From the NCBI GenBank assembly GCA_028819295.1, contig JAPPMA010000062.1:1-64000 (forward strand): a stretch of DNA of 64,000 nt, read 5' to 3'. This stretch comes from a bacterium (lineage in GTDB: Bacteria > Actinomycetota > Acidimicrobiia > Acidimicrobiales > Bin134). A model generated the notes under the pieces. The model was not told where the DNA came from. It was given only the letters and a program-made list of their open reading frames with translations, and did no database searches. Made by a program: the position numbers and the translations under genes. Each line of letters opens with the position of its first letter. Positions within the stretch are counted from its first letter, which is position 1. Below, piece by piece: positions 12,346 through 27,651 of the stretch.

Positions 12346-13089
12346 TCAATCAGAGAGCTGGGCGGCGAGGCGGTTGGCGGCGGCCACCACGGCTAGGCCG
12401 TGGTCGTGGGCCAGGTCGGGATCGGGGAAGCGGTAGGCCGGTCCGTGGACGTGGAGGGCGGCCAGGGGTTGTCCGCCCGTGTCGAGCACGGGAGCGCCCA
12501 CTGAGTTCAGATCCTCCACAAACTCTTCATAGACCCAGGCATATCCCAGACTGCGGATCTGGGTTAGGCGGTCTCGTATTGCTTCGGGGTCGACAACGGT
12601 CCACTGGGTGAAGACCTCAAGCGGTTGGGCGAGGAATTCGTCCTGCTGGTCGGCGGGGAGGTGGGCCAGCATGACCAGCCCCGCGGCCACGACATGAATC
12701 GGGGTGTGCTCGCCGGTCCAGTCCCGGATTTGGATGTCGGAGGAGATTTGGGTTTGGTCGAGGTAATGGGCCCGGCCGTTGTCGATGATCGACAGGCCGG
12801 CCGCTTCCCCCGTTGCTTCGGTCAACTCCAATAGGTGGGGGCGGGCGGCGGTAATGAGGTTGCGGCCCGCGGGGACTGCACCGGCAATGTCGATCAATCC
12901 GGTTCCCACTCGGTAGGCCCCGCCGGCCTCGACCTGCTCCACTGCGCCCTCAGCCTCCAGCGCGGACAACAGCCGGGCCACCGTGCTCTTGGGCAAATCC
13001 ACTCTCTCGGCCAGCTCGGTCACCCCCAACGGACCTTGCGCCAGCGTGCGCAACAGAAGAAACGCCCGCTCAACCGACTGCACCGCCAT
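12346..13089 (-). CDS. IclR-family transcriptional regulator
   Basis: 247 aa. An N-terminal winged helix (about 5-65: SVERAFLLLRTLAQGPLGVTE, LPKSTVARLLSALEAEG) is followed by the IclR effector domain (about 75-245, with YLDQTQISSDIQIRDWTG and the GAPVLDTGGQPLAALHVHGP core). ATG 13089 is 6 nt from TAGGGT (13096-13101). A 17-bp palindrome at 13118-13134 overlaps its -35 region and is repeated at the metF/DMGDH and corrinoid operon promoters. It therefore probably autoregulates and controls the one-carbon genes; the ligand could be betaine, dimethylglycine or a related amine. Confidence 0.88.
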   Translation of the reverse strand: MAVQSVERAFLLLRTLAQGPLGVTELAERVDLPKSTVARLLSALEAEGAVEQVEAGGAYRVGTGLIDIAGAVPAGRNLITAARPHLLELTEATGEAAGLSIIDNGRAHYLDQTQISSDIQIRDWTGEHTPIHVVAAGLVMLAHLPADQQDEFLAQPLEVFTQWTVVDPEAIRDRLTQIRSLGYAWVYEEFVEDLNSVGAPVLDTGGQPLAALHVHGPAYRFPDPDLAHDHGLAVVAAANRLAAQLSD

Positions 13090-13135: not shown

Positions 13136-13582
13136 CTAATTCTCAAGTATTTCTTGTGGGTCGCGGGGGTGGGTCTCGATGCTGGTGTCGAGCGTGTAGT
13201 AGTCGGAAGCATCTTCCGCGTAGATGGCCAACTCGGTTGACAGTCCGGTGGGGGGATCGAGGGTTCCGGCCCAGATCGCAATGTGGTCTAATTTCTGCTC
13301 CGACGCTCCCGGCGGCACCGCGATCACCTTCCAGAACAGTGAGCTTCCGCACCGCCGGCAGAAGCCGTAGGCCACATCGGGCCATTCATCAGGACGGTAC
13401 CACTCCAGCGTGTCGTCGGCGATCAGGCGAAGGTGGTCGCGGCGGCAGCCGGCGGCTGCGGTGAAGTGCCCCGTCCAGCGCTGGCACCGGTCGCAGTGGC
13501 AGTTCCACACGTCCCGAACCGGCCCGTCGATCACATACCTCACGGCCCCGCACATACACCGCCCGCTCAACGTGTCACTCAT
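13136..13582 (-). CDS. GFA/CENP-V family zinc protein
   Basis: 148 aa from ATG 13582 (a TTG lies three codons upstream). It carries the full zinc set of the GFA fold: GRCMCGAVRY, CHCDRCQRWTG and FCRRCGSSLFW. Despite the 'glutathione-dependent formaldehyde-activating' name, most family members are of unknown function. Its place beside demethylation genes makes formaldehyde handling conceivable but unproven. Its stop lies 1 bp from the iclR operator. Confidence 0.8.
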   Translation of the reverse strand: MSDTLSGRCMCGAVRYVIDGPVRDVWNCHCDRCQRWTGHFTAAAGCRRDHLRLIADDTLEWYRPDEWPDVAYGFCRRCGSSLFWKVIAVPPGASEQKLDHIAIWAGTLDPPTGLSTELAIYAEDASDYYTLDTSIETHPRDPQEILEN

Positions 13583-13591
13583 TGGTGGCAA

Positions 13592-13958
13592 ACTCTATTG
13601 GCCCAAGAAGCTGGAGGGGGATGCTCAAGATGGATGCCATGACAAACCGGGAACTCTGTCGGCAATATGTGAAGGCGGAATCAGAGCAGGCGTCCGGCGC
13701 CTCTGATCCGCGAGTCTCTGCACGATGGTCGGGCCAGCATTCGTTTTGAGATGCCTGAAGGTGCAGTCGCCGGTGACCACATATCCGCTCGGCTTGAGTC
13801 GTCAGGCCCAGGGCTTCTCACTCCTTTTGTCAATGAGTTCACCATTGTTGCCATAGACCAGAGGGACACGAGCGGTTCAAGAACTCCATGCTCGTCATTG
13901 GCCTGTCAGCCCTCAGCGCCCACGCAGCGGCTCAGGACGCTGGTATCGACGGCGGTGA
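13592..13958. other. Degenerate stretch with fragments of former genes
   Basis: No intact gene is seen. On the plus strand from about 13691 an open frame reads LIRESLHDGRASIRFEMPEG, then SGPGLLTPFVNEFTIVA, and drifts into unrelated sequence. It looks like a real protein C-terminal end but I cannot name the family. On the minus strand the first 18 codons of a PIN toxin appear (13906-13962). This is gene debris next to the restriction-like operon. Confidence 0.5.
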
Positions 13959-13962
13959 TCAC
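13906..13962 (-). pseudogene. Truncated PIN-domain toxin (VapC N-terminus)
   Basis: GTG 13962 overlaps the TGA of the AbrB antitoxin (GTGA). The frame reads VITAVDTSVLSRCVGAEG and stops after 18 codons. ITAVDTSVL is the first strand and catalytic Asp of VapC toxins, and the rest of the domain is deleted. Confidence 0.65.
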
Positions 13963-14174
13963 CGTCCTCGAATCTCCTCGATGTAGTCGTCAGTGCTGCG
14001 GCCATCGCTGAGTATCGCGAACACCCCATCGACAGGGTGTCTTGCCGCTGTCCGCTTTTGAATCAGGAGTCCTCCCTCGGTAGGGGTGAGCTCCACCTCA
14101 ACGTTGCAATTGAGGCCAAAACGCTCCCTCAGGCTCTTGGGGATCGTAATTTGCCCTCTCTCAGAAATTCGCAT
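13959..14174 (-). CDS. AbrB/MazE-type (SpoVT-AbrB) antitoxin, partner toxin broken
   Basis: 71 aa from ATG 14174 (GAAAG about 7 nt upstream; another ATG at 14210 would add 12 residues). RISERGQITIPKSLRERFG followed by VEVELTPTEGGLLIQKR is the swapped-hairpin AbrB DNA-binding domain. The C-terminus HPVDGVFAILSDGRSTDDYIEEIRG is the toxin-binding tail seen in VapB proteins. The coupled VapC is truncated, so this is an orphan antitoxin or a decaying module. Confidence 0.8.
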   Translation of the reverse strand: MRISERGQITIPKSLRERFGLNCNVEVELTPTEGGLLIQKRTAARHPVDGVFAILSDGRSTDDYIEEIRGR

Positions 14175-14244
14175 ACTTGATCTTTCAGAATTGCTGCCCA
14201 GCAAATTCATACTGGAGTGTTCAGCAAACAAGAGCGAGGCCATT

Positions 14245-17200
14245 TCACCGCAGTACGGCCATCCAGCAGACGACGCCGATGTCTTCTTCGGTGATTTCGG
14301 GGGGCGGCTCGGGGGCGTCGATTTCGTGCAGGCCGTAGAACTCCACGGTTTGGATGACCTGCCGGGCGGCCTCGGATTGGTCGATGACTTTCTTGTTGAG
14401 GTCGCGCTTGATGGCGCCGAGGGCCTGTCGCACTTGGACTCCACGTTCCACAGCCAATGCCTCGTATGCGGCGCGGGCGGCAGACGGTGTGGGAGCGTCT
14501 GGATGCTCCAGCGCCTCCCGGGCCCAACGCTGGACAGGCCCCAGGGAGTGGCTGCCGAGCCGAATGGCGGCATCATTGTGCTCTTGGATGATTGATGCGG
14601 CCGCCTCCGACCAAGCCGCCTCCAGGTCGATCGCCGGGTCTTCTATCCCGGGGGCTCGGCCTGGGTTGATGCGGCGCAGGATGACTGGTGGCACCGAGGC
14701 GATGTGGCCGTCAGGGGTGACGTAACGCCAATAGCGATCACCCTCGCGGGTGCGGCAGGCGAAAAACACCCCGGGCGGGCCGACCGAGGGGACGCCCGGC
14801 CCTTGGGCGAACGCAGCACCCACGCCCCAAGGGAGATCAGCAGCGCCTCCCAGTTCTCCTTCGAGCATGGCTCGGCTCAGCTCGGCTCGCAGCATTTCCG
14901 CGCTGAGGGCTTGCGGACCATCCGAAGGGTCGATCAGCGAGGCATCCCCATCGGCAAGCCGACGGGCATACGACTGGATCTCCTCATCGACATCGCCCTC
15001 CATCACCTCGATCTCCATGCCATAAGGGCGTGCGGCGACGATCTTTCGGCGTATCGCAGTCTCCAGTTGCAGGATCAACTCCAAGTCGCCCTCCTCGGGC
15101 AGCATGGTGATGAGCGATACCCGCGGGTGATGGCTCTTCAGGCGCACAACTCGCCCATATCTTTGAACCACACGCTGCGGATTCCAGGGCATGTCGTAGC
15201 TGATGACCGCCCCAGCTTGTTGCAGGTTTTGACCTTCGGAGAGCACATCGTTGCCCAAAAGCAGGTCAACTTCCCCATCTGGCGGGTCGTAGCCGGGTCT
15301 CACCACTGTCTCCGGGCAGAAACGGGCCAGCATCTGTGTGCGCTCATCGGGGTCGGTCTCCGCACCGATTACCGTCACCCGGGCGCGTCCATCCACCGGG
15401 TCGGGAAGGTTGGCGTCGAGGTAGCGGACCGTGTCGGCGAATGCCGAGAATATGAGGACCTTCTCAGATGAGACATCTCCCAGCAGTCGGCGCAGCAGCT
15501 TGAGCTTGGGATCGTCTTCGGGCTTGAGGGAGCGCAGGGCTTCGGCGGCGACGTGGAGGCGTTGGCGATCTTCAACGACATGTTCGCGGTAGCTGGGCTC
15601 GAAGTCGCCAACCGGCTCGGCATCGGTCTCGTCCAAATCCTCGGCCACCCATTCGGCCAGCCCAGTCTCGTCGAGGTCCAGCGCGGCCGCCTCCCGAAGT
15701 GCATCCCCAACCACCACCAGGCCCTGCTCCCAGAGTTTCAAGAACGCGTCGTGGGCGGCGATCATGCGATCCAGTGTGAGCAGGCAGGCATGCCAGCAAG
15801 ACTCGAAACGCTTGAGCACCGCAGATTGCAGCAGGGCGCCCAGCACAGCCTCCTGCCCAGACGTCTCATCGCCGACCCGAAAAGAACTGGGTCGATAGCG
15901 GGCCATGGACAGGCTGGCGATGTGGGCGGTGATGGTTCGAACCAGTGCGGGATAGGCCGCATCGAGGTCGTAGCGCTCAGTGGACAGATCAGGCGTGGGA
16001 AATGCAACCGGTGTGCCGTCGGGAAAGGTTTCGCTGCCGTAGTTCTGCTCGATGAATTGCCGATCTCGCCGGACGCTCACCATGTCGGCCAGCGAGAACA
16101 GCACATCGGGGTTGAGGTTCTCCGGGTCGCGCTCATTGGCGCCAGCCTGAAGGAACAGTTGGCGAAGTGAGGGAACCCCGTGGGCGGCAAACGCTCGGTC
16201 GTGGTGGGAGAAGGCCATGACCAGGTGGTAGAGGTCCCATAGACCGTTGTTTATGGGTGTGGCGGTGAGCAGGGCCAGGTCCTTTTGCCGGCCGCCCAGC
16301 AAGCGTGTGGCAGCCCGATACCAAGTGGTGTCGGGGGTGCGAAGGGCGTGTCCCTCGTCCATGACCACCAGCCGGTAGGCGTCCTTGTCGCTGTGCAGAT
16401 GACGCCGGGCGTTGACCGTGCCAGGCCCCACAAGCTGCTCGTCGGCGGCGAGTTGGTGATAGCTGACCACTTGGGCGGGCAGCCGAGCACGGTTCAACCG
16501 CCCCTGCCAGTGCTCCACAAGCTGGGCCGGTGCCACCACAAGGGCGTGGAGACCCCGGCGCAATGTGTACTCCTCGATGAGGGCGAGTCCGATCTCTGTC
16601 TTGCCCGTGCCCACGCCGTCGGCGTAGATCACCCCGTGATGCTGGTCGATGATTCGCAGCGCCCGATGAAACCCGTCTCGCTGAAACGCGGTCAGCTCCA
16701 CCGCGGCGGGCTGCGGCCCCTCGGGTGTGTCGTCTTGGCGGCCCAGCAGCTCCAGCAGTGCCAGCAGGTAGACCGCTCGGGGGTCGAGCAGCCCGGCCTG
16801 GGGGAAGAGCAGATCCCGCAAATCGGACTTGAATTCTTGGGCCTCGCTCCACAGCCGGTCGAACCAGGCCAAGGCTTGCTTGGCCACCGGGGGGTCGTAC
16901 TGAACCAGGCCCAGTTCCAGGTTGGCGAACAGCCCGCCGCCGGTGAGGTTGGCCGAGGTGACCAGCGCGGCCCGGGCGTCGTCTTGGTCGCCGAAGAGGT
17001 AGGCCTTTCCGTGGAGGAACTGGTCGGTGTAGCGCCGCACCTCCACCTCGGGCCGTACCAGCCAATCGTCGAGGTCGACCAGCTTGGCCGCGGCTCGGCT
17101 GGGCGGGAATCGGGCCAGGTCGCGGTCGGCCCGCAGTCCCTCCAGGGCCAGCTCGAAGCGGGAAACCGGCACTTGAGCGCCCAAGCCTGGCGCCGGTGCC

Positions 17201-17394
17201 ACCCCCAGCAGCAGCCGGACGGTGCGCTCGTCAGCCACCACATCAACCAAGTGGTGCAGGCCCCCCAGATTCACATAGCCGGTGGCAATGGACAGTCCAT
17301 GGTGGACTGCATGGTCGTCTAGCAAATAGGAGAGCGCGTCGGCGTGGCGGGTGCCGTCGCCCGAGTTGTCAAGCAGGTAGGGGCGACCGGGCAT
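14245..17394 (-). CDS. PLD-nuclease/SNF2-type helicase fusion of a restriction-like system
   Basis: 1049 aa from ATG 17394, which overlaps the methyltransferase stop (TGATG). The N-terminal phospholipase D-like domain has HGKAYLFGDQDDARAAL and SANLTGG near residue 126-145 (one HxK...D...S/N motif). A helicase core follows: Walker A GVGTGKTEIG near 261, DEGH near 342, TATPINN, and the C-terminal lobe with SEGQNLQQAGAV, YDMPWNPQRVVQRYGR near 725-745. The tail is helical. It resembles DrmD-like SNF2 helicases of DISARM with a DrmC-like PLD fused in one chain. The role is probably DNA translocation and cleavage of unmodified DNA; restriction activity is inference. Confidence 0.82.
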   Translation of the reverse strand: MPGRPYLLDNSGDGTRHADALSYLLDDHAVHHGLSIATGYVNLGGLHHLVDVVADERTVRLLLGVAPAPGLGAQVPVSRFELALEGLRADRDLARFPPSRAAAKLVDLDDWLVRPEVEVRRYTDQFLHGKAYLFGDQDDARAALVTSANLTGGGLFANLELGLVQYDPPVAKQALAWFDRLWSEAQEFKSDLRDLLFPQAGLLDPRAVYLLALLELLGRQDDTPEGPQPAAVELTAFQRDGFHRALRIIDQHHGVIYADGVGTGKTEIGLALIEEYTLRRGLHALVVAPAQLVEHWQGRLNRARLPAQVVSYHQLAADEQLVGPGTVNARRHLHSDKDAYRLVVMDEGHALRTPDTTWYRAATRLLGGRQKDLALLTATPINNGLWDLYHLVMAFSHHDRAFAAHGVPSLRQLFLQAGANERDPENLNPDVLFSLADMVSVRRDRQFIEQNYGSETFPDGTPVAFPTPDLSTERYDLDAAYPALVRTITAHIASLSMARYRPSSFRVGDETSGQEAVLGALLQSAVLKRFESCWHACLLTLDRMIAAHDAFLKLWEQGLVVVGDALREAAALDLDETGLAEWVAEDLDETDAEPVGDFEPSYREHVVEDRQRLHVAAEALRSLKPEDDPKLKLLRRLLGDVSSEKVLIFSAFADTVRYLDANLPDPVDGRARVTVIGAETDPDERTQMLARFCPETVVRPGYDPPDGEVDLLLGNDVLSEGQNLQQAGAVISYDMPWNPQRVVQRYGRVVRLKSHHPRVSLITMLPEEGDLELILQLETAIRRKIVAARPYGMEIEVMEGDVDEEIQSYARRLADGDASLIDPSDGPQALSAEMLRAELSRAMLEGELGGAADLPWGVGAAFAQGPGVPSVGPPGVFFACRTREGDRYWRYVTPDGHIASVPPVILRRINPGRAPGIEDPAIDLEAAWSEAAASIIQEHNDAAIRLGSHSLGPVQRWAREALEHPDAPTPSAARAAYEALAVERGVQVRQALGAIKRDLNKKVIDQSEAARQVIQTVEFYGLHEIDAPEPPPEITEEDIGVVCWMAVLR

Positions 17395-20300
17395 CAGCCC
17401 AGCTCGCCGAGGCGGTCGATCAAGTCGGCTCGGTAGGCGGGAGGCACGGCATCGGGGGTGAAGTCGTCGAACATGACCTTGAGGTCGTCGACCGTCAGGT
17501 TCCAGGCTCGGGCCACCCGGGCGTCGATGTCCACGAGCAGTCGCCGGCGCTCTTCGGGCGCCAAGGGGCCGCAATCAACCCCGACGGCGGCGGCGAAATC
17601 GCCGTATCGCTCATCGACGGCAGACAGCCGGGCCGCGGCCCGGGCGATCTCAGCGAAGCCCTCGTCGTCGAGGTCGGGGACGGTCAGGGATTCCAGCATG
17701 AAGAAGTTGAGGTGGATCTCCATGAAGCGGCGGGCCTGCCAGTCGAAGGGCAGGCTGTTCATGATGCCGAGGCAGGCAGCCTGGGCGCGCTCATTGCCGC
17801 CAATACACACCAGATAAGGGGCGGTGTTGGTCAAGAACACCTCGGGGGGAACCAGGCAGGCCCGTACCGTGCGGCTGTCGTCGGATCGGGAGACATCGCG
17901 GAAAGCAACCCGAGCCCGATCCAGTTCAGCCAGCACCGCCTGTTTGCGGTCTTTGACCTCGGTGGACTCGGCCAAGATTGACGATGACCCCGGCCGGGGC
18001 TTGCGGGCCTTCTTCTGTACCTCGTCGCTGGGAGGACACACCCGGGCCTCCGCTCCGTGGGGCTCGTACTGGTCGAAGCTCTCCCCCTTCCACAGCGGCC
18101 AGCCCTCAGATGCGTTGCGCCACAGGTGCCTGTCGTTGGTCTCGTCAAGCTCGCGAACAGGGAAGCACCGCCACCGGCCCCCGGCACCGTGGGGGAACGG
18201 CGAGCCGGCCCGGAGTTTGGCCAGCAGGTCGGCCTCGTCTTGGGAGCGGAGCCGAGGCGTCATCCAGCCCGCACCGAACAGGGCGGGAGCGAGCAGCACC
18301 CCCGGAGACGACGACTGGTCGGCCCACGATTCGGCGGAATCAGCGGTGGCGGCAAGGGCCACCCGGTGGGCGTCGTCTGGGGCGCGGCGTTCGGCCACAG
18401 TAAGGGCGACTCCATATTGAGGGTGGGTGTCAAACATCCAGAGTCGTCTATTGATCAGGAAGTCAATCCGCCGAGCCGAGATAGTGGTATACAGCCACTC
18501 ACGAAACCCCTCCGACCCCTGGTTCACAAACGCCCCCCGGGGCAGCACCACGCCGATCGAGCCGTCGGGGCGCACCAGGGCCCGGTAGCGCTGGCAGAAG
18601 TACTTGTACAGGTCGGGATCGCCTTTGGTCGGCTCGTATTCACCGGAGGCCAGCGCCTCCCGCTCGGCTTGGGCCCGCTTCTGCTCACTGCCGAGCAGGT
18701 CGGCCAATTCGGGACGCTCCACCAACAGCTCGGCCACCGCCGTGTCGCGTTCGTTGGCCGACAGGCCGTGCAGGCCGGGGAGGTGCAGCCCGTAATGCGA
18801 CAGCTCCTCCACCACCACCTCCTCCCAGGGGGGGTTGCCCACCACCGCGTCGAAGCCGGGGCGGTCGCGGGAGAACACCCGGGGAAACAGGAGCGGCCAG
18901 TGCAAGAAGGCGTGGACAGCACCCAACTCGCCAGCATGGCTGACGAGCTTTTGCCCGTTGCTGCCGTTGACGCCTGCAATAACGTCGGGACCGTGGGTCT
19001 CAGCATGGCTGCGAGCACCCTTCAACCCGAACCCCTCAGCGGTCCACAGGTCGAAGAGGCGTTGCAGGCCCTCGGTGGCCTGGCGGGCCTCTAGGTCGGC
19101 GGCCCTGCTGGCGTTCACCTCGGTGGGGGTGAGGTCGTCGATGTCGGCCAACCGGGCGACGGCATCAGCTCCATCGGCCAAGGCGGTCGACAGAGAGTCA
19201 GCTTGGAATGTGCCCTCCCGGATCACCGTGTCGGCGCTTGCCACTCCGATCAGGGAGTTGCCCACCACCACGTTGCGGTCCAGATAGGCAAGCGACAGGC
19301 CGGGCACGAACGACGCCAGCCAAAGAGACAGGGTGGCGATCTCCGCGCCCATCGGGCTGCGGTCCACTCCGAACACGCAGTGTTTGAGCACCAGCCGGCG
19401 CAATAGCGCCACATCGGTGATCTCCGAGCCCCTCATGGCTTGGTAGCGGAGGCGGTCCAACGCATCGCGGATCACCGGGAGCGGGTTGTCGGCCAGGAAC
19501 GCCACGGCCTGATCAGCCAGTTCCTCGGTGACCTGTACCAGGAAGTGGGCGCTCCCGCAGGCCGGATCCAGCACCGCGAAATCAAACAGATCGCGAGCCG
19601 CCTGCCGGGGGTCGGTTCGGATCTGCTCACGGACTCGCTCCAGGTGCTCTTGGAACAATGGCCGAACCGTGTGGTGTACCAAGTGCTGCACCAGCGAGAC
19701 AGGGGTGTAGTACACGCCGCCCGCCTTGCGCCCCCCCTCGTTGGTCTGCCACAAAAGCGATCCTGCGGCAACGCCGGATTGGTTCCCGCCTACCCCCGGA
19801 TCGCCTGTTTGGCTGTCAGCCTCTGGTTGGCTGTGGTCGGGCACATAGCGGTCTTTGCCGGCGTCGTAGCGCAGCGGCCGGTTGGCCACAGAGAGCCGCA
19901 GGCTGAGCAGAGCCTCGTAAATGTGTCCCAAATGGCCGATTTCCAGTGATGAGTAGTCGATGCCGCGCCCGGTATCTGCGTCCCGACCGATTGCCACCAG
20001 AACTCGGGCAAAGAAGGGGTCGGCCAGCTCTAAGCGCTCCAGCAGTTCGGCGCCCTCGAAGTCGGTTGGCGCGAACAATGCGCCGTTGTAGGCAGGCACC
20101 CCCCAGGCCGGGTTGCCGTCGCGCAGCGCCCCCACCAGGATCATGAAGCTCTTCCACAAGGCGGTGGACTTCATGCTCAACTTGCTCATCGTCTTGTCGG
20201 CTTCGGCTGCCAACTCGGTGAGCGACCGGCGTCGGTAGGTCTCGTTGTCTACCGGAAGGAAGCGGGAGCTCTCGGCATAAAGCACGAACAGAAGCCGGAA

Positions 20301-21380
20301 CAGCAGGGTCAGTGCCGCCCGCTCCAATTCCAGCCGCTGGTGGTCGTCGGTGGCGTCGAGCCCGTCGTGGCGGGTCCAGTGGTCGAGCCCATCGGCCAGG
20401 GCGGGCAAGGCCTCTTGGCGGATGGTGTGGTCGAGCCGGTGGCGCAGTTCGATGCCGAAGGCGCGGGCTTCGGCTTGGAGAGCGGCGAGTTCGCCGTCGG
20501 CAAGGTAGCGGGGCGACAGAAGGGCCAGGTAGGGGCGGTTCTCATCGCCGAGCAGGTCGGCATCGAGATCCAGCCATTCGGCGGTGGAGGCCGACGGGTC
20601 GCAGTCGAACAAGCGGTATCGGTTTCGGCACGCCATGATGCCGTAGCGGACGCCATGGCGGCGGCAGTCGGAGGCCAGCAGTCCCTCGGCAGGGCGCCCG
20701 ATCTCGTCGACGCGCAGAAAGTCGCGGGGGTTGGCCCAAGGGTGGACGAGGGCTATCGGCCGGCCCTGGTAGTGGGCCAGATAGCCCCGTTGGGGGAGCA
20801 TCTCGATCTGATAGCCCATGCCGGCCATGAACTCTTTCCAGCGACCGTTGATGAACAAGTCCTGTGTGATCTCGCCGGCGGTTTGCCAGCGTTCGCGGTG
20901 GTCGCGAAAGCGGGCTTCCAGGGTGTGGTGGGTCAACAGGCCGTGGACCACCTTGCCCCGGCTGGCCAGCCGCCTAACTTCGCCGGCCAGATGGCGAACG
21001 GCGTCCAGGCTGTGCATCGGCGCGGTGGCCTCGATGACGGTGGACAGCTCCGCACAGCCAACCGAGAGGATCGGCTCTCGAAACGTGCGGGGGCCGAGCG
21101 TGCGGACGCTGTCGGGGTTGTCGGGATCGTCGATGACCAGCAGATAGGAGAAGTTCATACCGTCGGCGTGTTCACGCCAACGGGCCCGCAAGCTGCGCTC
21201 TCCGGGCTTCTCGGCGACGGCCACCTCGATGTTGTTGACCCGAACCGACCGCTTGATGCCGGACCGGTTGGGCATCAGGCGGGCGATTCCCAGGCCCATC
21301 AGCCGGTTGAGCAGATCGTCGGCGTTCACCGACCTCAACTGTACGCGACGACGATCAAGCAAATTGGCGTTCGCAGCCAT
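17394..21380 (-). CDS. Large Eco57I/DrmMI-like adenine-specific DNA methyltransferase
   Basis: 1328 aa. The N-terminal ~560 residues include YGIMACRNRYRLFDCD and LFRLLFVLYAESSRFLP, common to type IIG and DISARM-type methylases. The catalytic domain has GGVYYTP, motif I DPACGSAHFLVQ (near residue 605), GVDRSPMGAEIATLSLWLASF and motif IV VGNPPWEE (near 848), diagnostic for N6-adenine methylation. The C-terminal region, with the LPFDWQARRFMEIHLNFFML segment, is probably target recognition. ATG 21380 is preceded by an inverted repeat. It is cotranscribed and translationally coupled with the PLD-helicase. There is no separate specificity or other DISARM genes nearby. Confidence 0.87.
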   Translation of the reverse strand: MAANANLLDRRRVQLRSVNADDLLNRLMGLGIARLMPNRSGIKRSVRVNNIEVAVAEKPGERSLRARWREHADGMNFSYLLVIDDPDNPDSVRTLGPRTFREPILSVGCAELSTVIEATAPMHSLDAVRHLAGEVRRLASRGKVVHGLLTHHTLEARFRDHRERWQTAGEITQDLFINGRWKEFMAGMGYQIEMLPQRGYLAHYQGRPIALVHPWANPRDFLRVDEIGRPAEGLLASDCRRHGVRYGIMACRNRYRLFDCDPSASTAEWLDLDADLLGDENRPYLALLSPRYLADGELAALQAEARAFGIELRHRLDHTIRQEALPALADGLDHWTRHDGLDATDDHQRLELERAALTLLFRLLFVLYAESSRFLPVDNETYRRRSLTELAAEADKTMSKLSMKSTALWKSFMILVGALRDGNPAWGVPAYNGALFAPTDFEGAELLERLELADPFFARVLVAIGRDADTGRGIDYSSLEIGHLGHIYEALLSLRLSVANRPLRYDAGKDRYVPDHSQPEADSQTGDPGVGGNQSGVAAGSLLWQTNEGGRKAGGVYYTPVSLVQHLVHHTVRPLFQEHLERVREQIRTDPRQAARDLFDFAVLDPACGSAHFLVQVTEELADQAVAFLADNPLPVIRDALDRLRYQAMRGSEITDVALLRRLVLKHCVFGVDRSPMGAEIATLSLWLASFVPGLSLAYLDRNVVVGNSLIGVASADTVIREGTFQADSLSTALADGADAVARLADIDDLTPTEVNASRAADLEARQATEGLQRLFDLWTAEGFGLKGARSHAETHGPDVIAGVNGSNGQKLVSHAGELGAVHAFLHWPLLFPRVFSRDRPGFDAVVGNPPWEEVVVEELSHYGLHLPGLHGLSANERDTAVAELLVERPELADLLGSEQKRAQAEREALASGEYEPTKGDPDLYKYFCQRYRALVRPDGSIGVVLPRGAFVNQGSEGFREWLYTTISARRIDFLINRRLWMFDTHPQYGVALTVAERRAPDDAHRVALAATADSAESWADQSSSPGVLLAPALFGAGWMTPRLRSQDEADLLAKLRAGSPFPHGAGGRWRCFPVRELDETNDRHLWRNASEGWPLWKGESFDQYEPHGAEARVCPPSDEVQKKARKPRPGSSSILAESTEVKDRKQAVLAELDRARVAFRDVSRSDDSRTVRACLVPPEVFLTNTAPYLVCIGGNERAQAACLGIMNSLPFDWQARRFMEIHLNFFMLESLTVPDLDDEGFAEIARAAARLSAVDERYGDFAAAVGVDCGPLAPEERRRLLVDIDARVARAWNLTVDDLKVMFDDFTPDAVPPAYRADLIDRLGELG

Positions 21381-21418
21381 AGCTTCCCGCTTCTGGTTCT
21401 ATCGAATGAGGGGAAGCT
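21381..21418. promoter_or_regulatory. Inverted repeat directly upstream of the methyltransferase start
   Basis: AGCTTCCC (21381-21388) and GGGAAGCT (21411-21418) form 8-bp arms with a 22-nt spacer. The arm nearest the gene contains the GGGAAG ribosome site next to ATG 21380. It could be an operator or an RNA hairpin masking the ribosome site. Confidence 0.4.
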
Positions 21419-21479
21419 GTGAATCAATATAAACGTGTGAAAGGACAGTTTCAACACCTGCCGGCCATGCGGTGTCGAA

Positions 21480-23015
21480 TCAACCGCCTTCGTCGGCAAT
21501 CTCGGTTTTGCGGCGGGCGATGAACTCTTGCAACTCGGCGTGGATGGCGTCGTCGAGGGGGGGTGGCTGGTAGTCGGCCAGCAGCTCCTTCCAGCGGGTG
21601 TTGGCCCGCTGCGCCGCGGTGAGCGAGCCATCCTCGGTCCACTGCTCGAAGCTGTTGTTGTCGGCTATCTCTGAGCGCCAGAAGGCGGTCTCGAAGTTGG
21701 CCAGGGTGTGCTGGTTGCCCAGGAAGTGGTCGCCGTGGGCGTTGGTGCGGAACGCCTCCATGGCCTGGCCGTTGTCGCTCAAGTCCACCCCTCGGGCGTG
21801 GACCTCCATGGCGCCGAGCTGGTCGGCGTCCATGATGAGCTTCTCGTAGCCCAGGGTCAGGCCTCCTTCCAGCCATCCCGCGGCGTGGAGCACGAAGTTG
21901 ACCCCGGCCTGCACGGTGGGCAAAAGCGTGTGGGCCGACTCGTAGGCCGCCTGGGCGTCGGGGGCCTTGGAGGCGGTGAGCTGGCCGCCGGAGCGGAATG
22001 GCACTCCGCACCGCCGGGCCAGTGCGGCCATCACGAAGATGGCCTGGGCGGCCTCGGGAGTGCCGAAAGTGGGGGCACCGGTGGCCATTGACATCGATGA
22101 GGCAAACGTTCCGAAGACGACGGGGGAGCCGGGCCGCACCAGTTGAAGGTAGGCCATGCCCGACAGGGCCTCGGCCAGGGCTTGGGCGGCCAGGCCGGCC
22201 ACCGTGACCGGCGACATGGCCCCGGCCAGGATGAACGGGCTGATGATGCTGGCCTGGTTGGCCCGGGCGTAGGCCGTGGCCGCTCCCAGCATGGTGGCGT
22301 CCCAGCGCATGGGGGAGGAGGCGTTGATGAGCGAGGTCATCACCGTGCGGTCGGCCAGGTCGCCTCCGAAGGCGATGCGGGCCAGCTCCACCGAATCGGC
22401 GGCGCGGGCGGCGCTGGTCACCGAGCCCATGAAGGGCTTGTCGGACAAGCGCAGGTGGGCGTACACCATGTCGAGGTGGCGCACATCCACCGGCACGTCC
22501 ACCGGCTCGCACACCGTGCCCCCGCTGTGGTGCAGGTGGGGGAGTCGGTAGGCCAGCTTCACCACGTTCTCGAAGTCGGCCAGGGTGGCGTAGCGCCGGC
22601 CCTGGTCGAGGTCGGTGACGAACGGGGAGCCGTAGTTGGGGACGAACACGGTGGTGTTGGCGCCGATGCTCACGCTGCGCTCGGGGTTGCGGGCGTGCTG
22701 GATATAGGTGGCCGGGGCGCTGTCGGTCACGATCTGGCGGCACATTCCCCGGGGGAACCGCACCAGCTCGCCGTCCACGTCGGCCCCGGCCTCCCGCCAG
22801 AGGTCGAGCGCCTCGGGGAAGTCCTGGAAGGCGACGCCCACTTCGGCCAGGATGGTCTCGGCGTTCTCCTCTATCTGGGCCAGGCCGGCCTCGTCGATGA
22901 TCTCCACCGGCGGCAAGCGCCGTTCCAGAACGGGGGCGGCCAATACCTGGCTGGCGGCCCGGGCGGCCTGGCGACCGGCCCGTCCTCCGCCGCGTCTGCC
23001 TTGTCGCTCGCTCAT
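21480..23015 (-). CDS. MttB-superfamily corrinoid-dependent methyltransferase (non-pyrrolysine)
   Basis: 511 aa from ATG 23015, overlapping the upstream stop as TGATG. The sequence spans the trimethylamine methyltransferase family (for example GVAFQDFPEALDLWREAGAD, SVEPVDVPVD-like CEPVDVPVDVRHLD, GQLTASKAPDAQAAYES). There is no in-frame amber codon, so it is a non-pyrrolysine member. Characterised relatives demethylate glycine betaine and similar quaternary amines, moving methyl to a cognate corrinoid protein. It is the last gene of a six-gene operon that also encodes that corrinoid protein, its activator and a methyl-THF methyltransferase. Substrate remains inferred. Confidence 0.87.
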   Translation of the reverse strand: MSERQGRRGGGRAGRQAARAASQVLAAPVLERRLPPVEIIDEAGLAQIEENAETILAEVGVAFQDFPEALDLWREAGADVDGELVRFPRGMCRQIVTDSAPATYIQHARNPERSVSIGANTTVFVPNYGSPFVTDLDQGRRYATLADFENVVKLAYRLPHLHHSGGTVCEPVDVPVDVRHLDMVYAHLRLSDKPFMGSVTSAARAADSVELARIAFGGDLADRTVMTSLINASSPMRWDATMLGAATAYARANQASIISPFILAGAMSPVTVAGLAAQALAEALSGMAYLQLVRPGSPVVFGTFASSMSMATGAPTFGTPEAAQAIFVMAALARRCGVPFRSGGQLTASKAPDAQAAYESAHTLLPTVQAGVNFVLHAAGWLEGGLTLGYEKLIMDADQLGAMEVHARGVDLSDNGQAMEAFRTNAHGDHFLGNQHTLANFETAFWRSEIADNNSFEQWTEDGSLTAAQRANTRWKELLADYQPPPLDDAIHAELQEFIARRKTEIADEGG

Positions 23016-25081
23016 CACTGCTCCTGCATCTGATTCCGTTGACGGCCCGTCCTCCGCCGCTTTGGTCTGGCAGTCTCGCTATCGGCTGGCGACCTCGGGG
23101 GCAAATCCACCGCTTGCATCAAGTGGGGGGTGGGGGCGGTCTCATGGGGCAGCGACATGGCGGCCACGAACAGCTCTTGGAAGCGGGCCTCGGTGGCAGT
23201 CTCGATCTTGACCACCTCCCGGGCGGCGTGCTCGACCTCGGCTCGCTGCGATCCCGACACCAGCATCCGGGCCGCGCCCGCTCCCGAGGCGTTGCCCACC
23301 CCTTTGACTCCTTCTACCGGCCCGTCGGGCACCAAGCCTAGCACCATGGCGTGGACCGGGCTGATGTGGGCGCCGAACGCTCCGGCCAGCCGAACATCGG
23401 CAACGTCGGCGATCCCGGCGTGCTCGGCCAGCAGGTCTATGCCGGCCCGCAACGCCGCCTTGGCCAGCTGCACCGCTCGCACGTCGTTCTGGGTCACCGA
23501 AAGCGGAACCGGCTGGGTTTGGAGCACATAGGAGAAAGTCCTCCCGTCGGCGATGACCCGGGGGCTGCGCTCGGCCAGCCGGCCATTGATGACTCCCCGG
23601 TGATCCATGATCCCGGCCAAGAACATCTCCGCGATGACCTCGATGATTCCCGAGCCGCACAGCCCGGACACCTCCAGCGAGCCCAGCGCCTCGCGAAAGC
23701 CGGGGTCGTCGGACCACAGGTCGCAGCCGATCACCTTGAACCGGGGTTCCAGCGTGGCAGGGTCGATCCGCACCCCCTCGATTGCCCCGGCGGTGGCCCG
23801 CTGTCCGCAGCTTATCTGGGCGCCTTCGAATGCGGGGCCGGTGGGACTCGACGCCGCCCACACCTTCTGGCCGTCGCCCAACACGATCTCCGCGTTGGTG
23901 CCCACATCCACCAGGAGCTGAGGTCGGGTGGAGCGGTGCGGCCCCTCGGCCAGCATGGCGGCCGCCGCGTCGGCTCCCACGTGGCCGGCGATGCACGGCC
24001 CCACATAGAGGGAGGCGCCGGGCAGGTCCACATCGATGTCGGCGGCGTCGGCCCATACTCCGTTGCGGACCGCCAGGGTGAACGGGGCGGCGCCCAGCGG
24101 GGTCGGGTCGATGCCCAGCACCAGGTGGTGCATGATCGGATTTCCCACCACCACCAGATCGCAGACGTCGACCCGGTAGATGTCGGCGGCCTCGCAGAGT
24201 TCGCCGATCACCTCGTTGATGGCTGACCGCACCGCCGTGGTCAGCTCGGCGGTGCCGCCGGGGTTCAACATGGCATACGACACCCGGCTCATCAGGTCCT
24301 CGCCGAATCGGATCTGCGGGTTCATGCGCCCTGCGGTGGCGACCACCTCCCCGGTGGCCAGATCCAGCAGGTAGCCGGCCACGGTGGTCGAGCCCACATC
24401 CACCGCCACTCCGAACTCCGCATCGGAATAGCCCGGCCGCACCGTGAGCACCCGTCGCTCAACCACCTCGCCGTCTTCGCTTTGCCCAGGGTACCGCCGC
24501 CGGGTGTGGACCACTGCGGTGACCGCCCCATTCCCCTCGGCGATCGCCGACGACAATGCGGGCAGCGCGGCAGCGGGAACTTCAACGTCGGACACGTCCC
24601 ATTCGTCGGCCAATGCGCCCACCAGTCGCTCGGCATCGGAGATCTCGTCGCCCAGCACGGCGGTGGCCAGCTCCAGGTAGTGGAGGGTCACCACCGGGTC
24701 GACTGTGATCGCACCCAGGTCGACGGCCTTTCGCACCACCGGGCTGTGGACTTGGCTTTGGGCGGGGACGTCGATGACCACGTCGCCCAGCACGGCGGCC
24801 TGACAGCTCAGCCGATGGCCTGGGTCCAACGGGCGCCGGCCGCGGTAGTCGAGCTCGGTGGGGCCGGCAACCGACAGCGCGCCCTCGCTGCTGGTCAGCC
24901 CCCACTTGGCGAACTGGCCGGTGCTGGGGGACACCTGGCAGCGGCCGCAGAGTCCGCGGCCTCCGCACACTGAGTCGATGTCCACCCCGGCAGCGCGGGC
25001 TGCGTCCAGCACCGTCGACCTCTCCGGGGCGGAAGCTGCGATGCCGCTGGGCGTGAACACCACGCGGTGTTCGGCGGTCAT
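23015..25081 (-). CDS. RamA-type corrinoid-protein reductive activator (ferredoxin + ASKHA/DUF4445)
   Basis: 688 aa from ATG 25081, which overlaps the preceding stop (ATGA). An N-terminal 2Fe-2S ferredoxin domain has Cys39, Cys45, Cys48 and Cys93. A linker is followed by the ASKHA-ATPase-like region with GVAVDVGSTTVAGYLLDL, LLVDVGTNAEIVLGD, SGLCGSGIIEVIAEMF and VRLAGAFGAHI. These proteins use ATP to return Co(II) corrinoid to the active Co(I) state. Its position between the methyltransferases matches the family's usual setting. Confidence 0.9.
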   Translation of the reverse strand: MTAEHRVVFTPSGIAASAPERSTVLDAARAAGVDIDSVCGGRGLCGRCQVSPSTGQFAKWGLTSSEGALSVAGPTELDYRGRRPLDPGHRLSCQAAVLGDVVIDVPAQSQVHSPVVRKAVDLGAITVDPVVTLHYLELATAVLGDEISDAERLVGALADEWDVSDVEVPAAALPALSSAIAEGNGAVTAVVHTRRRYPGQSEDGEVVERRVLTVRPGYSDAEFGVAVDVGSTTVAGYLLDLATGEVVATAGRMNPQIRFGEDLMSRVSYAMLNPGGTAELTTAVRSAINEVIGELCEAADIYRVDVCDLVVVGNPIMHHLVLGIDPTPLGAAPFTLAVRNGVWADAADIDVDLPGASLYVGPCIAGHVGADAAAAMLAEGPHRSTRPQLLVDVGTNAEIVLGDGQKVWAASSPTGPAFEGAQISCGQRATAGAIEGVRIDPATLEPRFKVIGCDLWSDDPGFREALGSLEVSGLCGSGIIEVIAEMFLAGIMDHRGVINGRLAERSPRVIADGRTFSYVLQTQPVPLSVTQNDVRAVQLAKAALRAGIDLLAEHAGIADVADVRLAGAFGAHISPVHAMVLGLVPDGPVEGVKGVGNASGAGAARMLVSGSQRAEVEHAAREVVKIETATEARFQELFVAAMSLPHETAPTPHLMQAVDLPPRSPADSETARPKRRRTGRQRNQMQEQ

Positions 25082-25980
25082 ACCGCGGCCCGGCGACGTC
25101 CTCCTCGACGGCGGGCGGCTCCCTCGCCGGCGGCGGTCGGATCCCGGTTCTCGGCGATCCACGCCATGCAGTCCTGGTCGTGGCCGGCCAGCACGTCGGC
25201 GGCCATCACCGCCTGCTTCACCTCGGCGTGCAGCGGGTTCATGATGGCCGAGGTCATTCCCGCGCCGATGGCCATGGCCAAGAACGTGCCGGTCACCGCG
25301 TGGCGGTTGGGCAGCCCGAAGCTCACGTTGCTGGCCCCGCAGGTGGTGTTCACCCCCAGCTCGTCGCGGATGCGCCGCACCAGGCGGAACACCTGCTGGC
25401 CGGCGGTGCCCATGGCCCCGATGGGCATGACCAGGGGGTCCACCAACACATCGGAGCGGGGGATGCCGTGGTCGGAGGCCCGCTCCACGATCTTGCGGGC
25501 CACCTCGAATCGGACGTCGGGGTCCTCGCTGATGCCGGTCTCGTCATTGGAGATGGCCACCACTGCGGCGCTGTGGCGGGCCACCAGCGGCAGCACGCGC
25601 TCCAGCACCTCATCCTCGCCGGTGACCGAGTTGATCAGCGGCTTGCCGTCGTACACCGCGATGCCCGCCTCCAGCGCTTCGATGATCGACGAGTCGATGG
25701 ACAGGGGCACGTCGGTCACCGACTGCACCAGCTTGATGGCCCGGGCCAACAGCGCCGGCTCGTCGGCCAATGGGATGCCGGCGTTCACGTCCAGCATGTG
25801 GGCGCCGGCGGCCACCTGGGCCAGGGCGTCTGCCTCCACCCGGCTGAAGTCGCCGGCCTTCATCTCCTCGGTCAGCAGCTTGCGCCCGGTGGGGTTGATC
25901 CGCTCGCCGATCATCACGAAGGGACGGTCGAACCCGATCACCACTTCTTTGTTCGCCGAGCTGAGCACGGTGTCGGTCAC
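25078..25980 (-). CDS. Methyltetrahydrofolate:corrinoid protein methyltransferase (MeTr, pterin-binding)
   Basis: 300 aa from GTG 25980 with GGAGG 6 nt upstream; GTG overlaps the TGA of the upstream small gene. It is a pterin-binding TIM barrel: MIGERINPTGRK, AHMLDVNAGIP, PLSIDSSIIEALEAG, PLINSVTGE, VAISNDETG, DVLVDPLVMPIG and TTCGASNVSFGLP. It transfers methyl between the corrinoid protein and THF; with MttB upstream in the flow, the direction is most likely towards THF. The C-terminus after about residue 275 is Arg-rich and probably disordered. Confidence 0.9.
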   Translation of the reverse strand: MTDTVLSSANKEVVIGFDRPFVMIGERINPTGRKLLTEEMKAGDFSRVEADALAQVAAGAHMLDVNAGIPLADEPALLARAIKLVQSVTDVPLSIDSSIIEALEAGIAVYDGKPLINSVTGEDEVLERVLPLVARHSAAVVAISNDETGISEDPDVRFEVARKIVERASDHGIPRSDVLVDPLVMPIGAMGTAGQQVFRLVRRIRDELGVNTTCGASNVSFGLPNRHAVTGTFLAMAIGAGMTSAIMNPLHAEVKQAVMAADVLAGHDQDCMAWIAENRDPTAAGEGAARRRGGRRRAAV

Positions 25981-26300
25981 GTTTTCGCCTCCAGAGGACT
26001 TTCTATTGCGCTTTCGGGATCCCAGCCTCCGGTGGACACAAACTCGTCGAGGCGCTCCCGCGGAAATGCGGTCTCGAGTTCCTCGGCGGCCCGCAGGGCG
26101 GCCCCCTCGGGATCGTTGGGGTCGCCGGGAATCAGCTTGCGGCGCCACTCGCCAACGTATTGTGATGCCTGGGTCTTGCCGGCCACCATGGCGGCCCGGT
26201 CGATAGCGCGTTGGAAGCGGCGGGGGAGGATGCGCTGGATCTTCGAGGATCCCGAGCCTGCGTTAACCTGAGCAGGGATGTCCCGCCAACAGATCACCAC
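25977..26300 (-). CDS. Small 'virulence factor' domain protein linked to methyl-THF methyltransferases
   Basis: 107 aa. I place the start at GTG 26300 (a second GTG follows), after a GGGGGAG stretch. The N-terminus VVICWRDIPAQVNAGSG and the segment LPRRFQRAIDRAAMVAG, then YVGEWRR, match a small conserved protein annotated as virulence factor (Pfam-type name) that recurs beside MeTr genes. Its function is unknown; the name is historical. It ends in a 4-nt overlap with the MeTr start, so it is probably made in step with it. Confidence 0.65.
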   Translation of the reverse strand: MVICWRDIPAQVNAGSGSSKIQRILPRRFQRAIDRAAMVAGKTQASQYVGEWRRKLIPGDPNDPEGAALRAAEELETAFPRERLDEFVSTGGWDPESAIESPLEAKT

Positions 26301-26329
26301 TAGGTAGTCGTTACTCCCCCGCCGCCGAC

Positions 26330-26947
26330 TCACGCGGCTCGCTCCCGGATCTCTACCAGCGCATCGACCAAACCTCCATACCCAGCAGCCACCTTCTCGA
26401 AGCCCAGCCCCAGGCGGTCGGCCGCTTGTCGGGCCAACCGATCCAGCTCGGTGTCGGGCTCCTGAGACAGATACACCAGCCGGGTGTAGTTGTTGAAATA
26501 GACGTCTTGCAGTTCGGGGTGTTCCAAAATGCCCAGCCCCTCCAGAATCAGGCGCTCGAAGTGGCGCACCAGATAGTCGGTCAAATACAGCGTGCCTAGC
26601 TCCTGTTCTTGAAGCTGGGAGAACGCCTCGGCCCCGGCGTAGAGCTCGTAGCAGTGAGGGCCGGGAAGGCGCTCCACTCCCTCTTGGTGGCACACCTTGT
26701 CGAGCAGGCCTCCGGTGCCGCAGTCGGCGTAGCCCACCAGGATTTTGCGGTAGCGGCCGCGGGCGGCCCGCACCCGCTTCCGCACCGCCTCGGGGATCAG
26801 CTCGGGGCGGTTGTGCAGCTTGGCCGGCAGGCACTCCAGGTCGATGGTGCTGCCACTGCCCTCGCGGTCGAGGGAGGCAATCAGGTGGCGCAGTTCCTTG
26901 GCCAGGGCCCCGCAGGCCACCACGAGCACCCGATCATGGCTGGACAT
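26330..26947 (-). CDS. DUF1638 protein
   Basis: 205 aa. VLVVACGALAKELRHLI near the N-terminus, LHNRPELIPEAV, VGYADCGTGGLLD and PGPHCYELYAGAEAF are DUF1638 hallmarks, with conserved Cys and His that could bind metal. DUF1638 genes accompany MttB-type methyltransferases in bacteria and archaea, but no biochemical role is established. It starts 2 bp after the corrinoid protein stop. Confidence 0.82.
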   Translation of the reverse strand: MSSHDRVLVVACGALAKELRHLIASLDREGSGSTIDLECLPAKLHNRPELIPEAVRKRVRAARGRYRKILVGYADCGTGGLLDKVCHQEGVERLPGPHCYELYAGAEAFSQLQEQELGTLYLTDYLVRHFERLILEGLGILEHPELQDVYFNNYTRLVYLSQEPDTELDRLARQAADRLGLGFEKVAAGYGGLVDALVEIRERAA

Positions 26948-26949
26948 GG

Positions 26950-27651
<702 letters not shown>

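Follow-up and report, generated by a model that had tools for sequence, protein, structure and literature searches.

A mobile two-gene pair of a recognition-bearing adenine methyltransferase and a PLD–SNF2 motor, probably an ATP-dependent restriction-modification system

The window analyzed here is a 64,000-nucleotide (nt) stretch of actinobacterial DNA (assembly GCA_028819295.1, contig JAPPMA010000062.1, positions 1 to 64,000) from a member of the Acidimicrobiales. It carries two adjoining genes, one for an N6-adenine DNA methyltransferase (MTase; gene 1) and one for a PLD nuclease fused to an SNF2-type motor (gene 2), which we read as probably forming an ATP-dependent restriction-modification (RM) system. 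Coordinates of the genes, their domains and the surrounding features are collected in Table 1. A first-pass annotation had described a 1328-amino acid (aa) adenine MTase translationally coupled to a 1049-aa protein with PLD and SNF2 domains, and the open reading frames (ORFs), the TGATG overlap and the Pfam matches bear this out. Congeners share this 1-nt overlap, and other taxa have 4-nt overlaps. A longer, TTG-started version of gene 2 (1109 aa) was rejected because relatives begin at the overlapping ATG, with the same 1-nt overlap.

Gene 1 matched the Pfam Eco57I MTase and N6_Mtase families above cut-off and nothing else. The MTase motifs DPACGSAHF and NPPW are intact and conserved in an alignment of 13 homologs. 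Its top PADLOC model was the Type IIG-type MTase (PDLC03620; 363.9 bits, aa 265–1307), although the nuclease of the window pair lies on the partner protein instead. Motif scanning of the 13 aligned homologs found no conserved PD-(D/E)XK nuclease motif in the N-terminus, and a Type IIG enzyme with its own nuclease was provisionally set aside on this ground. Residues 1–310 lie outside the best PDB fold matches. The same kind of scan did reveal a DPEGEPLDVLIVEVK-like motif in the MTases of some distant relatives (locus L084).

An AlphaFold2 (AF2) model of gene 1 aa 130–1328 (pLDDT 78) gave BrxX/PglX as its best Foldseek match, covering nearly the whole model. VIA-align comparison matched CamA (Z 26), BrxX (Z 23.6, root-mean-square deviation (rmsd) 9.2 Å, 675 residues aligned), the Type ISP enzyme LlaGI (5ffj; Z 22.2, rmsd 10.8 Å, 559 aligned), DrdV (Z 21.7), 4xqk (Z 21.1) and MmeI (Z 20.9). 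The long matches span the MTase and recognition parts, from about residue 180 to about 1165–1190 of the model. The MTase thus appears to make up a single unit together with a recognition-like half, as in Type ISP, Type IIL and BREX MTases. The annotation had noted the lack of a specificity subunit. None is encoded separately, but this appears to be because the target-recognition region is fused to the MTase.

In gene 2, PLDc_2, SNF2-related and Helicase_C all scored above their Pfam cut-offs. The PLD residues H128-x-K130, S147, N149 and E160 are invariant in 21 homologs, and the motor motifs (Walker A GVGTGKT, DEGH, TAT and QRxGRxxR) are intact and conserved. Residues 220–834 of the AF2 model (pLDDT 81) matched SNF2 ATPases (VIA-align Z ~20) and ZorD (Z 19.2). 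The top PADLOC model was the candidate family 'HKD+Snf2' (C3a139, PDLC01075; 143.5 bits), which has the same PLD-then-SNF2 order; DrmD (88 bits) and HmaA scored lower. Distant members of PDLC01075 reach ~180 bits, above gene 2, and are in most cases followed by an MTase gene, the reverse of the order in the window pair. The RE_NgoFVII Pfam model scored 21.2 bits on gene 2, under its cut-off of 23.8, and the Pfam scan of the pair found no B3 domain. Every full-length NCBIfam match of the two proteins was far under its cut-off. In a PDB sequence profile search, the 'putative helicase' chain 7clg_A, which we take to be SauUSI, matched across the PLD–SNF2 junction.

Relatives were gathered from the genus and order, from plasmids, from species genomes and from IMG/VR. 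Motor relatives scoring >240 bits came from 45 loci, which span Acidimicrobiia, other actinobacteria, Gemmatimonadota, planctomycetes, haloarchaea and Nitrososphaera. When all neighboring ORFs were clustered, the MTase was the sole other family recurring beside the motor across lineages. It was present in 39 of the 45 loci, usually directly upstream, and most of the others stop at a contig edge. The leftover clusters reflected genus synteny, antisense ORFs or small groups of 3–4 loci. An MTase–motor distance of -1, -4 or a few bp was seen repeatedly among haloarchaeal, actinobacterial, thaumarchaeal and Gemmatimonadota loci. Purifying selection acts on both genes, with dN/dS of 0.13–0.18 for the MTase and 0.11–0.22 for the motor. 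The pair was also found on plasmids of haloarchaea, Rhodococcus and Mycobacterium, and the motor family in 12 of 245 other genomes (~5%) sampled from the phylum. The proposal of a distinct, compact two-gene unit that could be found again in other genomes thus holds: the unit is real, conserved and mobile.

The same pair is present on three IMG/VR contigs classed as viral (L128, L129 and L130). In a few loci extra genes stand between MTase and motor: a trypsin-like protease (L128:5477-6337), a RAMA-domain protein (L054:9190-9873) and a 272-aa protein unmatched in Pfam and PADLOC (L037:11160-11978). At L033:10056-14042 (genome G013) the MTase is split into two ORFs (620 and 703 aa), with a few residues lost at the break and the motor intact; we read this split as a frameshift or an assembly error. 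Scattered defense genes, namely GajB-like, pAgo, HerA, SoFic and GmrSD, were detected in a scan of 84 proteins neighboring the pair.

Two occupants of the same genomic site, in G007 and G015, share 94.5% identity over MTase aa 1–800 and 75.6% over aa 800–1328, with 97.2% identity in the motor past aa 120. The divergence of the MTase C-terminal half relative to the motor gave a chi-square p of ~1e-110, a guide only, as sites were treated as independent. Identity minima lie near MTase aa 972–1020 and 1172–1197, and the tract extends to about motor aa 90 for G015. G007 and G014 show the same pattern, and G014 and G015 share their MTase C-terminal half at 91%. The C-terminal half has been swapped between near-identical copies, as would be expected if recombination had replaced a specificity region; RM systems change their specificity in this way.

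A sister clade, with motors ~38% identical to that of the window, occurs in several congeners. There the region matching gene 1 (P0001) aa 1090–1308 is a separate ORF, and some loci hold two tandem recognition-like ORFs of ~70–80% identity, as if specificity subunits had been duplicated. Tandem ORFs of this kind lie at L041:5945-7547, L042:5485-7080 and L044:16230-17972. Specificity is likewise separate from the MTase in the HsdS/HsdM arrangement of Type I systems. For more distant HKD-Snf2 proteins, a large ORF (~1100 aa) mostly follows the motor rather than preceding it. All five such ORFs tested were MTases, four of them with a Type_ISP_C or TaqI_C recognition domain and the other with another Eco57I form. 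The theme of a PLD–SNF2 motor joined to a recognition-bearing adenine MTase is therefore wider than the clade of the window.

The genome of the window itself (G000) holds several PLD–SNF2 systems. Further motor genes lie on its contigs C54, C101 and C84 (L002, L003, L004 and L213), two of the sister type (38–43% identical) and one distant, some of them cut by contig ends. At G000:C18:18155-20787 (L008), an SNF2 helicase adjoins a 1789-aa DUF1998-bearing ORF, and this is probably another defense system.

The pair of the window occupies a defined insertion site between a GFA-family gene and an MttB-family methyltransferase gene. These two genes are joined by 41–57 bp in G002, G019, G008, G011, G003 and G020. 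The site is occupied in the window and in G007, G013, G015, G016 and G005, where the pair lies between the flanks or on contigs with one flank. G011, with an empty site, holds the pair elsewhere, on C54. The segment absent from empty sites includes an intact antitoxin gene supported by Pfam and an 18-codon ORF whose sequence we take for the beginning of a truncated PIN toxin; the toxin–antitoxin debris reported earlier in this island was accordingly found again. Beyond the island, a MttB-family methyltransferase, a RACo-type corrinoid reactivase, a pterin-binding methyltransferase and a DUF1638 gene fill positions 21480-27592, which we read as a corrinoid C1-demethylation cluster flanking it.

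Table 1. The gene pair, its domains and the features around its insertion site in the window
Feature	Position	Strand	Basis or remark
Gene 1, gamma-class N6-adenine DNA MTase with fused C-terminal target-recognition-like half, 1328 aa	17394..21380	-	ATG start
Gene 1 N-terminal region, aa 1-310	20451..21380	-	Alignment of 13 homologs, motif scan
MTase motif I, DPACGSAHFL, aa 605-614	19539..19568	-	Alignment of 13 homologs
MTase motif IV, NPPW, aa 849-852	18825..18836	-	Invariant in 13 homologs
C-terminal target-recognition-like half of gene 1, ~aa 1000-1328	17397..18380	-	Exchange, fold, sister clade
TGATG stop/start overlap, 1 nt, translational coupling	17392..17396	-	
Gene 2, PLD (HKD) nuclease–SNF2 motor fusion, 1049 aa	14245..17394	-	ATG at 17394
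PLD nuclease domain of gene 2, ~aa 1-200	16795..17394	-	PLDc_2 above cut-off, motifs
SNF2-type SF2 motor of gene 2, aa 225-830	14905..16722	-	Pfam, motifs, VIA-align
C-terminal alpha/beta extension of gene 2, ~aa 831-1049	14248..14904	-	AF2 model; Pfam silent
Segment absent from the empty sites in six congeners (41-57 bp there instead)	~13573..21489	.	
MazE/AbrB-type antitoxin, intact, 71 aa	13959..14174	-	Above Pfam cut-off
Putative start of truncated PIN-like toxin, 18 codons, VITAVDTSVLSRCVGAEG	13906..13962	-	Read from sequence
Insertion-site flank, GFA-family gene	13136..13591	-	
IclR regulator beyond the GFA gene	12346-13089		
Insertion-site flank, MttB-family methyltransferase gene	21480..23018	-	

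Several features generally expected of ATP-dependent RM come together at this locus. The predicted domains place an adenine MTase, target recognition, a nuclease and an SF2 motor side by side, and the specificity region is exchanged between close relatives. Mechanistic precedents are the Type ISP enzymes (PMC4666363) and SauUSI, in which a PLD nuclease and an SF2 ATPase share one chain (PMC7913695). From these and from CglI (PMC4267653) we infer the catalytic events and the role in defense, that is, methylation, recognition, protein–protein contact, translocation, cleavage and phage protection. Protein 1 would recognize a DNA sequence through its fused C-terminal region and methylate adenine at N6, marking the host genome. 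At an unmethylated site on incoming DNA it would engage protein 2, whose SNF2 motor would hydrolyze ATP and move or remodel double-stranded DNA. Two PLD domains sharing one HxK active site would then cut the DNA as a dimer.

Among established enzymes, Type ISP (LlaGI, LlaBIII) likewise brings together an SF2 motor, a gamma-class adenine MTase and a fused recognition region, and its MTase half folds alike. Type ISP enzymes are, in contrast, single chains with an Mrr-family nuclease (PMC4666363), whereas the window pair comprises two chains with PLD on the motor; it shares the MTase and recognition fold but not the single-chain build. CglI and NgoAVII combine a PLD nuclease and an SF2 helicase-like ATPase with a separate MTase (PMC4267653, PMC7913695). 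In those systems an R subunit apart from the helicase joins the PLD to a B3 recognition domain, whereas in the window pair PLD and SNF2 share one chain and recognition is placed on the MTase. We conclude that the pair follows a 'split Type ISP' logic in which the motor carries a PLD nuclease, working like Type I/ISP and CglI/SauUSI systems while belonging to none of these, nor to DISARM.

Some observations weigh against an RM role of this kind. The rmsd values of the gene 1 fold matches are large, as these are multi-domain alignments, and the recognition half is therefore assigned by its arrangement and exchange and not by DNA contact. Support for the PLD domain comes from Pfam and motifs; the VIA-align list for gene 2 holds SNF2-like and other helicases only, and neither supports nor excludes it. 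A PLD–SNF2 relative, NCBIfam NF042964 (106 of 1100 bits), is named as an anti-phage protein with no MTase mentioned, so some nuclease-motor proteins may work without modification.

It is unlikely that the pair is instead a BREX-like or other modification-dependent system that stops phage from replicating but does not cut DNA, with the SNF2 protein as a remodeler and PLD as an accessory. The near full-length BrxX/PglX match of the MTase model would suit such a system, as would the BREX-related Type-2 (BR-2) systems, which pair an HKD-Swi2/Snf2 helicase effector with an N6-MTase (PMC12839542). However, the invariant PLD catalytic residues argue for cleavage over a non-cutting action. DUF499 was missing from 13 of the 17 pair-bearing genomes or records; in the other four it lay on a different contig or >80 kb away. 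BR-2 systems have a DUF499 ATPase, DUF3780 and a DUF1156-bearing MTase. No third gene recurs with the pair across lineages, though no search aimed at DUF3780 was made. Membership of BR-2 was dismissed, as DUF499 does not accompany the pair and Pfam detected no DUF1156 in gene 1.

Decidedly improbable is a minimal derivative of DISARM, with DrmMI-, DrmD- and DrmC-like activities held in two proteins and phage blocked as DISARM does. The first-pass annotation had likened the pair to such a compression, and the domain content is indeed parallel, DISARM class 1 having an adenine MTase, an SNF2 helicase and a PLD nuclease. Low-level matches were seen to DrmMI (238 bits, mainly in the catalytic part of gene 1), DrmD (88 bits) and DrmC (35 bits, on the PLD of gene 2). 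The compression was nevertheless not borne out: the best models are those of Type IIG and 'HKD+Snf2', and gene 2 reached 98.2 and 73.3 bits against curated DrmD models with cut-offs of 610 and 950. DISARM class 1 further differs in having DrmA, DrmB (DUF1998) and a separate DrmC. The annotation had seen neither DrmA nor DrmB beside the pair, and its suggested check of relatives agrees, as no gene but the MTase recurs beside the motor across lineages. No Drm family was present among the first 25 of 148 families listed for the 84 neighboring proteins. MZB/DUF1998 was not seen near the pair. Of 24 pair-bearing genomes or records, 12 lack it altogether, among them all four plasmids and the closed congeners G007 and G015; in the genome of the window it lies on contigs C2 and C18, and the pair on C62. 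DISARM membership was dismissed on the DUF1998 result and the DrmD cut-offs. ATP-dependent RM fits better because of the conserved pairing, the exchange of the C-terminal half and the fold likeness to Type ISP and BrxX.

We think it very unlikely that gene 2 is a Type IV-like, modification-dependent PLD–SNF2 nuclease lying beside an independent, solitary MTase. SauUSI offers a model, with the same PLD-then-SF2 order in one chain and cleavage of modified DNA without an MTase partner (PMC7913695). It differs in its own C-terminal modified-cytosine reader, and Pfam found no SRA-type reader in the C-terminal part of gene 2. The overlapping pairing of the genes across bacteria and archaea also speaks against two independent activities. 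Least probable of all is a decaying or selfish pair without a defense function, a notion in keeping with the adjacent toxin–antitoxin debris and the broken MTase frames of relatives (L033, L035) but not with the full conservation of motifs or the strong purifying selection that acts on both genes where the copies are intact.

Returning to the ATP-dependent RM reading, we tentatively propose, at a little short of probable, that the pair represents a distinct, unnamed class of such enzymes in bacteria and archaea, with recognition on the MTase and a PLD nuclease within an SNF2-type motor. As the recognition region of the sister clade is split off and doubled, this class would span Type ISP-like (fused) to Type I-like (separate) specificity. 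Its parts are already catalogued in PADLOC ('HKD+Snf2' and 'Type IIG' MTase models), and its mechanism is likely a familiar one. Within the open-access literature, no paper was found that describes the pair as a system. As databases file the two proteins separately, the pair is probably undercounted. If the mechanism holds, the pair would be among the smallest ATP-powered restriction systems, with all functions in two genes, and its specificity could be changed by replacing half of one gene. It would also be a clean model for studying how an SNF2 motor activates a PLD nuclease.

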